DNA of 64,000 nucleotides from Flavobacteriales bacterium (lineage in GTDB: Bacteria > Bacteroidota > Bacteroidia > UBA10329), in contig JAIPBM010000025.1 in the NCBI GenBank assembly GCA_021739695.1, forward strand, positions 1 through 64,000, given 5' to 3'. Position numbers and translations under genes: made by a program. Under the pieces are notes generated by a model that searched no databases, was not told the origin of the DNA, and saw only the letters and a list, made by a program, of their open reading frames with translations. Below, piece by piece: positions 8,983 through 13,550 of the stretch. The number at the start of each line of letters is the position of its first letter. Position 1 is the stretch's first letter.

Positions 8983-10158
8983 ATGAAAACGTACTATCTG
9001 GGATTGCTACTGACCATTACCTGTTTTGTAGCCAATGCACAGCAGCCCATCAGCATTGTCCGTACCGACATGCCAAACATCAACGATACGTTCCGTTACA
9101 GTATTGTCGATAATCTGTTGGGCCTTATCGACCTCAATGACACGGGGGCTGACATGGTTTGGAACTATTCCACCTTGGGTTCTTTCACGCAACGTGTCGA
9201 TACGATGGTTGACCCCGTTTTCGGAACACCGTTGGTTTACAACATCACGTTCAGTAACTTTTTCGACATGAACCACTTTGCCACCATTGCCGGGCGCAAT
9301 GTGCTGGGGCAGTTCAATCAGAATTTCATTTCCATCGAGAACGTGTATGATTTCTTCCGCGAGACGAACGGATTCTACGCCAACGTAGGATTGGGACTTA
9401 CCATCAATGGCTTTCCACTCACCTCGGTAATGGAACCAAGGGACCTGGTCTACGAGTTCCCTTTGGAATATGGCGATGCCGATAATTCCTTCGGGCAATA
9501 CGGAGTGGATGTGCCGCAGTTCGGCTACTTCGGACAAAAGATAAGCCGACAGAACACGGTGGATGGCTGGGGCGAGTTGACCACGCGTTTTGGCACCTTC
9601 GATGCATTGAGGGTCTTCACGCTACTCAACATCACCGATACCTTCAGCATACAAGGTTTTGGATTTGAACAACCACGGCCGACACAGTTCGAAATCAAAT
9701 GGTTAGCAAAGAATATTGGCGCACCTGTGCTTTCTGTAAGAGGACAGATCCTATTCAATCAGCGGGTGGTGAACACGGTAGAATACCTCGATTCGCTGAG
9801 AGATTTTACTGCCAGCACATTTCCTCCTGAGCCAGTAGACACGACCAGCAATCCAGCAGACACCACCTCATCTGGTATTTTTGATATCCTGACGCCAGAA
9901 AACATAGCGGTGCATCCTAACCCATTCACAGAATCCTTCCAGATTCGACTGAACCTACCTGAAGCGGCTATCCTGCACGTTCAGGTATTGGATATAACGG
10001 GTAAGATGGTGGCAGACCTGGGCATAAGAAGATTGTCTGCAGGCAGTCAACTTTGGAATTGTGACCTGAGTAGTTACGCTATCTCTTCAGGCCTGTATCA
10101 TCTCGTCATTTCTGATAGCAACGGTGGCCGATTGGTGAAGAAAATGGTGCGGCAGTAG
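8983..10158 (+). CDS. Hypothetical secreted protein with T9SS type A sorting domain
   Basis: 391 residues. The signal peptide ends near CFVANAQ (about residue 20). The central 270 residues are beta-rich and unrecognised (TFRYSIVDN, MVWNYSTLG, VDGWGELTT). A linker rich in Pro, Thr and Ser (about 280-300) precedes a C-terminal T9SS sorting domain beginning HPNPFTESF and ending LVKKMVRQ. The protein is expected to be exported by Sec and then by T9SS. It is monocistronic, with a convergent acyltransferase gene 54 bp downstream. Confidence 0.85.
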   Translation: MKTYYLGLLLTITCFVANAQQPISIVRTDMPNINDTFRYSIVDNLLGLIDLNDTGADMVWNYSTLGSFTQRVDTMVDPVFGTPLVYNITFSNFFDMNHFATIAGRNVLGQFNQNFISIENVYDFFRETNGFYANVGLGLTINGFPLTSVMEPRDLVYEFPLEYGDADNSFGQYGVDVPQFGYFGQKISRQNTVDGWGELTTRFGTFDALRVFTLLNITDTFSIQGFGFEQPRPTQFEIKWLAKNIGAPVLSVRGQILFNQRVVNTVEYLDSLRDFTASTFPPEPVDTTSNPADTTSSGIFDILTPENIAVHPNPFTESFQIRLNLPEAAILHVQVLDITGKMVADLGIRRLSAGSQLWNCDLSSYAISSGLYHLVISDSNGGRLVKKMVRQ

Positions 10159-10212: not shown

Positions 10213-10899
10213 CTATTGTGGTTTGTACTTGGCCAAGCGGGCTTCCATATCTCGCGTCACCGCTTTCTTGTACGGTACGTCAGGCATGTTTTTCATTGCC
10301 TTCACATATTCCTTTATGTTCACCTTCTCGCTGCGCATGCGAATGCGTTTGAAAAACTTGGGTAGCATTTGTCCGGGCGCTTGCACGTGGTGCAATCCAC
10401 CACTATAAACGAACACCAGTTCGCCATCGGGCATCATCTCCAGAATATCGGCCACTCCTCCCCTTACCGACATTGGCTTCCCATTCTTATCCAATCCATC
10501 AGCCCGCATCATTCTGCCTTCTGGAAGAATGATCACCACAGATTCGGGTAGAATCGCTTTCAAGAAGTTATCCCAGGTCTCATCCCGCTCGCGCGATATG
10601 GGAACCATCCTCGGTGCAATGAAGCTCAATATCCAACCAGCGAGCGGTCGATTCATCGTCACATCGGCCCCTGGAGCGATGATACGCCCAGCAATACGCC
10701 AGAGCATGCGCCATGGTGCAGCACCAAGAAACAAAGGTTCGAACAAACTGGTGTGATTGAGCAAGGCCAGCACTTTCATTCCAGCCCAAGGATCGCTTTC
10801 ATGCGCATGCACCCACTCGTTCTCTACACGGTAGAAAAGTCGCGACCAAAGCTTAACACCAGCCAATACCATGAAATTGGCTACCCGTTGAATATGCAT
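10213..10899 (-). CDS. PlsC-like lysophospholipid acyltransferase
   Basis: 228 residues resembling 1-acylglycerol-3-phosphate acyltransferases, which transfer an acyl chain in phospholipid or ornithine-lipid synthesis at the inner membrane. Block I is LLNHTSLFEP, where the usual HX4D is HX4E; the acceptor Asp is replaced by Glu. Block III is ILPEGRMMR, close to the canonical PEGTR. A hydrophobic patch around residues 60-80 could be the membrane association site. The HX4E change is conservative, but activity and substrate are less certain than for a canonical PlsC. The gene is monocistronic. Confidence 0.7.
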   Translation of the reverse strand: MHIQRVANFMVLAGVKLWSRLFYRVENEWVHAHESDPWAGMKVLALLNHTSLFEPLFLGAAPWRMLWRIAGRIIAPGADVTMNRPLAGWILSFIAPRMVPISRERDETWDNFLKAILPESVVIILPEGRMMRADGLDKNGKPMSVRGGVADILEMMPDGELVFVYSGGLHHVQAPGQMLPKFFKRIRMRSEKVNIKEYVKAMKNMPDVPYKKAVTRDMEARLAKYKPQ

Positions 10900-11060: not shown

Positions 11061-11558
11061 ATGACCGAAGACCAGAAAATACTTTGGGCCAAGATCAAAG
11101 AATTTGAAATCGATGACATTGATTCTGAATTCACATTTACAGATAGGCTGTCGCGTGAGAATGCTTGGACCATGGAGTTCACCTTGCGAGCGGTTTATGA
11201 ATACAAGAAGTTTCTTTTTCTTATCTGCACAGCCGACCATCCCCTCACGCCATCTGACCAAGTAGACCAAGTATGGCACCTGCACCTTATTTACACCCGA
11301 TCGTACTGGCACGACCTATGCCGAGACACGATAAAACGTGACATACACCACGGCCCTACCAAAGGCGGCCAGCAGGAAAAGGATAAGTTCAAAGACTGGT
11401 ATGCTGAGACCAAGCGGTTCTATGAACGGCAATTTGAAGCAATTCCACCTACCGATATCTGGCCACCAAGCAAGATCAGGTTTGGCGAAGTGATATTTAC
11501 AAGGGTCAACCGCCATCGGAACTGGGTTCTCCCTAAGCTAAACATGAACAAGTACTAA
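11061..11558 (+). CDS. GRDP-like (DUF1399-type) protein
   Basis: 165 residues. The core PSDQVDQVWHLHLIYTRSYW (about 64-83) matches the VDxVWHxHxxxTxxY pattern of plant glycine-rich-domain proteins and their bacterial relatives. Conserved His73 and His75, with H84, H96 and H97, suggest a metal or substrate pocket, but no activity is established. There is no signal peptide. Its TAA stop overlaps the ATG of the next gene by one base (TAATG), so the two are translationally coupled and probably act together. Confidence 0.7.
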   Translation: MTEDQKILWAKIKEFEIDDIDSEFTFTDRLSRENAWTMEFTLRAVYEYKKFLFLICTADHPLTPSDQVDQVWHLHLIYTRSYWHDLCRDTIKRDIHHGPTKGGQQEKDKFKDWYAETKRFYERQFEAIPPTDIWPPSKIRFGEVIFTRVNRHRNWVLPKLNMNKY

Positions 11559-12358
11559 TGGAGATATTATCAAAGCTTACTCCTGCCGAAACGCATTTAG
11601 TTATGGCAACTACCGATGCGGAACTTAAGAATATGATGAAGTACACCTTCATGGATCTGCTACTGAAGCAGGTCATCCAAACAAAGAGGATCACAAAGCA
11701 AGCTCACCGAAACGACAGGGCACGTGTCTATACCTATGTGGTGGCAGGAAAGAATTTTCTGAGTTATAAACCTTTACGTCATGAAGAGATCTTCCTGAGC
11801 CCGTTTTACACATCTCAGAGCTTAGAGTTGTTATTCCGGCACTTGGTAACGATGGGGTTTCAGAACGCAGACGGAACCAACAACTATGTTCACAAGCGTT
11901 TGATAAAATCGCCTAATCTCAAAGGAATATTTGAAATAGGCTTTTTCATACAACTCTTCGGTACTATCAAACTCACTCCGCAGGGTAATGCATTGCAAAG
12001 GGAGATCAAACGAGCTTTAGACCGCTTAGAAACTGAACTTCCACAGGTCATTCATTCAGATAAGGCCAAAGCTTTGGAAATTCTGCTCGCTATTGGCGGC
12101 AACATTTTCCTTCTCAAGAATCTAGATTTCGCATTGCTCAATCAGATTGACAGCGAATTGATGAAAGAATTCAAAAAACAGCGTGGAGAAAATGACAGTA
12201 GCGGTTGCTACGGTTGCGGTGACTGGCATCAGTATGATCATTACGGAGACAGCTTTGATTCTGACTACGATGCGGCCGATGCTAGTTTTGGAGATAGTGG
12301 TTGTAGCAGTTGTAGTGGATGTAGCGGTTGCAGTGGATGTGGAGGCTGCGGAGACTAG
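11558..12358 (+). CDS. TIGR04222-like protein with Cys-every-third-residue tail
   Basis: 266 residues. The N-terminal 200 residues are helical and begin LTPAETHLVMATTDAEL, reminiscent of TIGR04222-type proteins that often sit beside GRDP-like genes, although no strong membrane segment is visible here. After a Cys217-x2-Cys220 pair and an Asp/His/Tyr-rich stretch, the last 20 residues have Cys at 249, 252, 255, 258, 261 and 264, exactly every third position, separated by Ser and Gly. The tail could bind metal, be crosslinked or be post-translationally modified; none of these is shown. Translation is coupled to the upstream gene. Confidence 0.65.
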   Translation: MEILSKLTPAETHLVMATTDAELKNMMKYTFMDLLLKQVIQTKRITKQAHRNDRARVYTYVVAGKNFLSYKPLRHEEIFLSPFYTSQSLELLFRHLVTMGFQNADGTNNYVHKRLIKSPNLKGIFEIGFFIQLFGTIKLTPQGNALQREIKRALDRLETELPQVIHSDKAKALEILLAIGGNIFLLKNLDFALLNQIDSELMKEFKKQRGENDSSGCYGCGDWHQYDHYGDSFDSDYDAADASFGDSGCSSCSGCSGCSGCGGCGD

Positions 12359-12374: not shown

Positions 12375-13550
12375 CTACCCTCCAATAATCGGACAGCGTT
12401 CGAAAGGTTTCTGCCGATCAAAAAGATAACGATACGTGGCGTGTGTCTTGATGATCTCGCCACCCAATTGTTCGCACACGCGCATCATCTTCGGATTGAA
12501 ATCGCCACACCAGTTCATTTCGATGGTGTCGTATGGCAAACCCTTGCCCCAAGCCAGTTTACTGAAAGCTACCACGATGGCTGCCTCTACTCCTTTCCCG
12601 TGCCATTCTGGAACAACTCCGAATACCAATCCCAGCGCTTTATTGCACGACCCTGTTAGTTTGTGGTACATGAATTTGATCTTCCCAATCAGATTCATAT
12701 TTCCATTCACGTGCTTAAAAAGCTGGTTCAATTCAGGAATAGAGATGAAAAATGCAATGGGTTGTTCCTTGTAAAATCCGAAATAAAGCAGACGTGGGTC
12801 GGCAATCGGCTTCAGCTTCTTGAACATCTTTTCGCATTGCTCCAAGGTCATTGGTTTTACACCAGAATGGCCGCCCCAAGCTTTACTATACACTTCTTGG
12901 AAGTAAGCAGCCGCTTTGTGCATATCTGCTTTGGTCAAATGCTTGAATGTAAGATCAGGATTCTCTAAGGCCATTTGTGCCCGTTCGTAAAAACGAGGTT
13001 CAAAATCCTTTGTTTTTCGAATATCCCGAGCATAGGTATACTGCTTGAAGTAAAGCTGAAAGCCATAGTACTCGAACAGTTTCTGGTAGTAAGGCGCATT
13101 GTAAAACATGCCGTAGTTCTGTTGCGCAAAACCATCTATAAGCACACCCCAGAACTTGTCGCGTTCGCCAAAATTGACAGGACCGTCCATAGCTTCCATA
13201 CCACGCAACTGCAACCAGCCTTTAGCTGCGTCAAAAAGGGTGTTTGCCGCTACTTGATCATTGATGCAATCGAAAAAACCACAGCCACCAGTGGGTTGAG
13301 TTTCCTTGTCTACAGTCTTACCGTTAATGAAAGCTGCAATGCGTCCAATGGTCTTTCCGTCTCGCTTTAATAGCCAGCGAATGACATCACTTTTAGGTTC
13401 AGTAAAAACGCGATTCACCTTTGGGTCGAATACGTCTTTGATCTCTTGATCAATATTCCGAATGTAAAGTGGGTCGTTGGCATAAAGAACGGATGGAAAA
13501 ACTATCCATTCATTCTCTTGCTCTGCTGTGGATACTTGCACCAATTGCAT
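12375..13550 (-). CDS. GNAT-fold N-acetyltransferase-like protein
   Basis: 391 residues of a conserved Bacteroidota protein type with a C-terminal GNAT-like fold. The region LGLVFGVVPEWHGKGVEAAIVVAF resembles the acetyl-CoA loop (R/Q-x-x-G-x-G/A), here with WHGKGV. An N-terminal segment (YANDPLYIRNIDQEIKDVF) is typical of this subgroup. The acceptor substrate is unknown. A TAATCTTG box at 13555-13562 lies only 4 nt before the ATG. It converges with the Cys-tail gene 16 bp away and is downstream of the monooxygenase with a 63-bp gap. Confidence 0.65.
   Translation of the reverse strand: MQLVQVSTAEQENEWIVFPSVLYANDPLYIRNIDQEIKDVFDPKVNRVFTEPKSDVIRWLLKRDGKTIGRIAAFINGKTVDKETQPTGGCGFFDCINDQVAANTLFDAAKGWLQLRGMEAMDGPVNFGERDKFWGVLIDGFAQQNYGMFYNAPYYQKLFEYYGFQLYFKQYTYARDIRKTKDFEPRFYERAQMALENPDLTFKHLTKADMHKAAAYFQEVYSKAWGGHSGVKPMTLEQCEKMFKKLKPIADPRLLYFGFYKEQPIAFFISIPELNQLFKHVNGNMNLIGKIKFMYHKLTGSCNKALGLVFGVVPEWHGKGVEAAIVVAFSKLAWGKGLPYDTIEMNWCGDFNPKMMRVCEQLGGEIIKTHATYRYLFDRQKPFERCPIIGG

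Follow-up and report, generated by a model that had tools for sequence, protein, structure and literature searches.

A split, two-gene version of a widespread GRDP-like domain and Cys/Gly tail module in a Flavobacteriales bacterium

Why would a gene for a small GRDP-like protein overlap a second gene whose product ends in a regular array of cysteines? The arrangement occurs in the 64,000-nucleotide stretch of Flavobacteriales DNA analysed here (the window). It had been proposed, in a prediction made from the sequence alone, that the two genes are coupled and that the tail takes part in modification, metal loading or crosslinking by a pair not yet described. The features discussed below are as follows.

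11061..11558, plus strand: gene 1, GRDP-like all-helical protein of 165 residues (sub-threshold PF07173 match; AlphaFold2 model)
11274..11285, plus strand: WHLH core, residues 72-75 (D69, W72 and H73 invariant, H75 nearly so, in 65 homologues)
11319..11321, plus strand: Cys87 of the GRDP domain, invariant (conservation across homologues)
11346..11351, plus strand: His96-His97 (H97 invariant, H96 nearly so)
11556..11560, plus strand: TAATG stop/start overlap of gene 1 and gene 2 (one base, A, common to both ORFs)
11558..12358, plus strand: gene 2, tail-carrying partner of 266 residues (AlphaFold2 model; no family match)
11558..12172, plus strand: folded core of gene 2, approximately residues 1-205, helices and two strands (AlphaFold2 model)
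12206..12217, plus strand: upstream CxxC, Cys217/Cys220 (sequence)
12227..12292, plus strand: predicted helix, residues 224-245, SFDSDYDAADASF region, directly N-terminal of the tail (model)
12302..12349, plus strand: Cys tail, six Cys at 3-residue spacing (249-264), degenerate 9-bp repeats (sequence)

Both ORFs are present, and they share one base at the TAATG junction as described in the original prediction. They are isolated as a pair, as both flanking genes, an acyltransferase-like gene upstream (10213-10899, minus strand) and a gene on the other side (12375-13550, minus strand), are oppositely oriented. The pair occurs once in the window genome (4.24 Mb, 98.5% complete, 53 contigs), on contig C25. 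An Rfam search of the whole window returned no match, and a consensus search found no sigma-70-like promoter 5' of the pair. Window positions 8983-10158 encode a secreted-looking protein with a C-terminal region that by eye resembles a type IX secretion sorting domain.

The Pfam profile search aligned gene 1 with PF07173 at 20.5 bits (E=8e-4), below the curated cut-off of 22.7 bits. The earlier label "GRDP-like" thus stands as a weak match that falls just short of family membership by score. Twenty-one of 65 gene 1 homologues match the same model at E<0.01, and the remote relative L025 reaches 22.9 bits. The AlphaFold2 model of gene 1, built from an alignment with plasmid-derived rows left out, is all-helical (pLDDT 94, pTM 0.88), with no predicted transmembrane segment and no significant fold match among PDB structures; sequence searches for solved-structure relatives of the two proteins gave none that were credible. 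Residues P64, D69, W72, H73, Y82, C87, H97, P99, Y121 and F125 are invariant in the 65 homologues and E47, Y48, H75 and H96 nearly so, which bears out the WHxH core claimed for this protein (WHLH, residues 72-75). By residue type and conservation, the His, Asp and Glu residues of this set may form a metal site.

The product of gene 2 has no family match in Pfam or NCBIfam, no predicted transmembrane segment, and a confidently modelled core (pLDDT 89, pTM 0.84) without a significant fold match among PDB structures. Its cysteines lie at positions 217, 220, 249, 252, 255, 258, 261 and 264, confirming the predicted upstream CxxC and the six Cys at 3-residue spacing. The FDS motif in the region of the helix between them (residues 224-245) recurs across the split-pair family. 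A six-Cys run at spacing 3 arose in approximately 6.5e-5 of shuffles that kept the composition of the final 27 residues, and the six frames of the window hold one further four-Cys run at this spacing, inside a 47-codon stretch. As had been noted, the tail is encoded by a degenerate 9-bp repeat; a unit-by-unit codon comparison showed that the units differ at 71% of third, 29% of first and 11% of second codon positions. The dominance of third-position differences indicates that the repeat is old and has been kept at the protein level rather than freshly slipped. The spacing was also said to be strict, and in gene 2 it is exact; among 53 gene 2 homologues, however, the longest exact CxxC run ranges from 1 to 7 and some cysteines are spaced by 4-6, so the family as a whole does not keep to an exact 3-residue spacing. 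Expansion of the array, also proposed, is seen as variation between species and found no other support. The variability in Cys number and spacing fits a low-specificity chelator but also a substrate that is modified at multiple sites.

A gene 1 homologue was found in 34 of 395 genomes of the class and in 1 of 9 genomes of its own genus, while the nearest relatives (69-74% identity) belong to other families. This distribution suggests that the gene was acquired by transfer or lost repeatedly. Our scan of named genomes yielded 80 GRDP loci: 56 stand-alone, 22 fused with a tail of their own and 2 cut. A partner ORF lies within reach in 53 of the 56 stand-alone cases (the L118 copy is frameshifted), and in L059 and L098 the first part of the partner is cut off by the contig end. 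Counting the two contig-end cuts and the one frameshift, gene 2 is present at 55 of 56 stand-alone GRDPs; the sole exception, L136, adjoins what looks like a transposase gene. Junctions in relatives are mostly 4-base or 1-base overlaps, the 4-base ATGA type being the commonest, and L018 has the two genes in reverse order. One locus (L079:7984-8757) carries a second gene 2 copy approximately 700 bases downstream of the pair. Comparative genomics of the pair had been set beforehand as a test, and the partner proved to be conserved next to Cys-tailed proteins; taken with the swapped order and the fusions in cis, the coupling of the two genes is stronger than was first claimed. It is possible to argue that the tail is neutral low-complexity sequence and that the proximity of the genes is incidental, since the tails are indeed of low complexity and variable length. 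This explanation is very improbable, being already contradicted by the partner at 55/56 stand-alone GRDPs, the repeated fusions, the order swap and the loss of the tail where the GRDP is lost (see below).

Clustering of neighbouring genes revealed no recurrent partner beyond the pair, save within close relatives, and no metal-resistance or metal-transport genes as recurrent neighbours. An apparent ABC-exporter cluster was rejected because it reflected a mere shared ATPase domain.

The loci fall into three layouts. In the split layout, the GRDP is accompanied by a soluble gene 2 that carries the tail. In the membrane-fused layout, the GRDP is followed by hydrophobic segments, usually two (two are predicted in 16 of 20 GRDP-membrane-tail proteins), and a Gly/Cys tail. 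In the third, seen in cyanobacteria, planctomycetes and some Bacteroidota, the GRDP is followed by a TIGR04222-like region and the tail; the fusions in L032 (84.2 bits) and L108 (92.8 bits) score above the TIGR04222 cut-off of 43 bits. The Gly/Cys tail is in cis with the GRDP at 22 of 80 loci and in trans at the window locus. Mapped onto the gene 1 tree, a quick tree with many weak branches, the layouts require 9 changes compared with 37 when the labels are shuffled.

A gene 2 relative at L107:6489-7448 has a core interrupted by two membrane segments and a weak collinear match to TIGR04222 (E=0.023), and may be a bridge between the families. The cyanobacterial GRDP-TIGR04222 fusions (L114, L124, L128, L134 and L135) lie among proteins with CHAT and periplasmic-binding domains (families tested in L124), and PspA/IM30-like proteins are close to several of them. 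At L114:7641-9476, genes for a metalloprotease-like protein (JAB/MPN, by eye) and an E1-like/rhodanese protein follow a tail ending in GCGGCGG, which may be coincidence. Downstream of the GRDP-TIGR04222 gene of a single locus (L054:283-6248) are genes assigned by eye to a radical SAM protein, a C39-type ABC exporter, an HlyD-like protein and a short leader-like ORF.

A model built from the gene 2 core without the tail matched in 18 of 335 genomes. All 14 gene 2 homologues that adjoin a GRDP have the tail, and none of the 6 orphan homologues, from four genomes without a GRDP match, has it (Fisher p=2.6e-5, relatedness ignored). The six tail-less orphans all belong to genomes of one family and hence represent few independent events. 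Single examples extend the pattern to other carriers: in L031 the gene after a remote GRDP encodes a 357-residue protein with an (SSC)n GGD tail and no detectable relation to gene 2, and in L175 the Cys-rich tail is on the GRDP itself. Conversely, the remote GRDP of L163, in which the WHxH and HH motifs are degenerate, has no tail. Because the tail is present beside the GRDP and missing in the orphans, these comparisons show that, at the level of sequence, the GRDP domain and the Cys tail behave as a unit whose tail carrier is exchangeable across several bacterial phyla. We conclude that the widespread module formed by a GRDP-like helical domain and a Cys/Gly tail is divided between two genes at the window locus.

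A set of remote GRDPs of approximately 170 residues (L152-L162, also L025-L030) mostly end in CWHxCxxxCWHxC. A TauD-family dioxygenase gene adjoins 7 of the 12 such loci searched (PF02668, E=1.5e-20 for the one tested). These loci seem to represent a second GRDP-Cys-tail system, separate from the first and with an oxygenase as neighbour.

Hydropathy suggests that the tail of the split and membrane-fused forms is cytosolic, because the split proteins lack a membrane helix and the fused forms mostly have two. With an even number of membrane segments and a GRDP that has no signal sequence, both ends would lie on one side. Periplasmic tails, by comparison, are predicted for TIGR04222 proteins in general (Antoine et al., PMC12452194). 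The location bears on the idea of the tail as a structural or redox-sensitive element, such as a disulfide or self-assembly tag, with the GRDP as its chaperone or scaffold. The low complexity of the Gly/Ser/Cys tails, their variable Cys number and the existence of membrane-anchored forms are consistent with such a role, which we nevertheless consider improbable: the cytosol is reducing, and the near-invariant His/Asp/Glu cluster suggests more than scaffolding.

Since precursor and maturation genes may sit far apart in a genome (Haft 2009, PMC2674419), whole genomes were searched for known modifiers of such tails. The family search detected no MNIO (PF05114) in the window genome, and its absence is very likely given an assembly of 98.5% completeness in 53 contigs. 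MNIO occurs in 37 of 390 genomes of the class, in 7 of 34 GRDP-bearing and 30 of 356 other genomes (p=0.03, uncorrected for relatedness). It was not found in 13 of 16 split-pair genomes, and in those that have it the gene is on another contig or megabases away. YcaO (PF02624) was detected in none of 23 genomes, including that of the window, although positive controls matched. The window genome has 16 radical SAM genes; none is on contig C25, and no radical SAM peptide maturase lies beside the pair. It is thus unlikely that this tail carries either of the two modifications best known from such tails, and modification by MNIO or YcaO at this locus was rejected on these searches. The data also speak to a scheme in which an MNIO-like enzyme encoded elsewhere modifies the tail and the GRDP serves only for recognition or docking. 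Subsets of the Cys-tailed TIGR04222 proteins have been proposed as MNIO substrates (Antoine et al. 2025, PMC12452194), and GRDP-bearing genomes have MNIO somewhat more often than the others. Considering that most split-pair genomes yielded no MNIO, that none of the 23 genomes yielded YcaO, and that no radical SAM gene shares the window's contig, we regard this scheme too as improbable.

Gene 2 shares features with several known systems. Like the TIGR04222 membrane proteins it ends in a Gly/Ser/Cys tail, but it is soluble; the TIGR04222 model has no match in gene 2 or anywhere in the window genome, and a profile-profile comparison gave no match of the cores, only an alignment of the tails. Membership was therefore rejected. 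The MNIO-modified bufferins and oxazolins (PMC12452194) are likewise Cys-motif proteins with a possible copper role, whereas gene 2 has no signal peptide and no MNIO gene was detected in its genome. Heterocycloanthracin and related TOMM precursors, with Cys-Xaa-Xaa repeats (PMC2674419), have the 3-residue Cys spacing, Gly/Ser filler and unit insertions of the tail; gene 2 differs in having a 200-residue folded core in place of a short leader, and no YcaO was found in this and 22 related genomes. Metallothioneins are Cys-rich and, as may be true of gene 2, bind metal in the cytosol, but here the tail extends from a folded protein that comes with a dedicated partner, and neither protein of the pair matched a metallothionein in Pfam or NCBIfam. 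The closest parallel is in plants. GRDP1 and GRDP2 are described as having DUF1399 at the N terminus, a putative RNP motif and, at the C terminus, a Gly-rich domain, with tail consensus sequences GCGxxCxGxCG and [CG]GGGCGG[GC] (PMC8585784, PMC4299439). By the wording of these papers, in the parts available, the plant proteins share with the window locus a GRDP-like domain linked to a Gly/Cys C-terminal tail, the link being in trans here. They differ in being one long protein with the putative RNP motif between domain and tail; at the window locus a second protein, whose core is different, carries the tail.

As far as sequence comparison reaches, modification and metal loading of the tail remain the two best readings. 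We favour metal loading, tentatively, because the pair is conserved, the tail tracks the GRDP, metal-type residues are conserved, and the topology and the plant tails agree with it. The module would be cytosolic, and its GRDP His/Asp/Glu cluster would exchange metal with the tail: the conserved residues, together with Cys87, would bind a metal ion, perhaps a soft metal or iron, that is passed to or taken from the tail thiols, and the folded core of gene 2 may take the tail to where it acts. Against this stand the lack of a recurrent metal-resistance or transport neighbour and the few independent orphan events. The main rival, to which we give a rather low probability, is that the GRDP is an unrecognised metalloenzyme that covalently modifies the tail Cys (or neighbouring Gly/Ser), with gene 2 or the fused tail as a protein-sized substrate. 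It would account for the obligate GRDP-tail coupling and for L163, where the His motif and the tail are both lost; the tail repeats of Gly/Ser and Cys are reminiscent of RiPP cores, a YxzE-like bacteriocin model gives weak matches to three homologues, no MNIO or YcaO was detected as an alternative modifier, and a TauD-type dioxygenase adjoins the CWHxC-tailed GRDPs. Yet a membrane protein that combined an enzyme with its own substrate would be unusual, no recurrent exporter, protease or leader processing gene lies nearby, and in the TauD group the chemistry would fall to another oxygenase. The more far-reaching idea that bacteria and plants share a new class of metal-dependent enzymes, founded by GRDP, that modify Cys tails on protein-sized substrates in cis or in trans, appears unlikely.

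The claim that the pair is not yet described holds in part. In the literature on bacterial GRDP-like, DUF1399, PF07173 and TIGR04222 proteins, largely that outside subscription journals, we found neither a split pair nor a bacterial link between GRDP and tail; Cys tails are known from TIGR04222 proteins and, in the available parts of the papers cited, a GRDP domain with a Gly/Cys tail from plant GRDP1/2. In plants GRDP1 and GRDP2 affect development and stress tolerance, and those parts report no assigned biochemical role for DUF1399 or the tail and describe the function of the protein as unknown (PMC8585784, PMC4299439). In the bacterial pair the domain and the tail are on two small soluble proteins from overlapping genes, so that the halves can be separated for deletion, swapping and purification. 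The match between tail presence and GRDP presence yields a testable claim, that the domain acts on or with the tail. Approximately one third of genomes with Cys-tailed TIGR04222 proteins lack the proposed MNIO modifier (PMC12452194), and the GRDP-tail link therefore bears on these proteins as well; for those linked to a GRDP, it points to a tail in the cytosol and not in the periplasm. An unexplained family reported in plants is now open to testing in bacteria.
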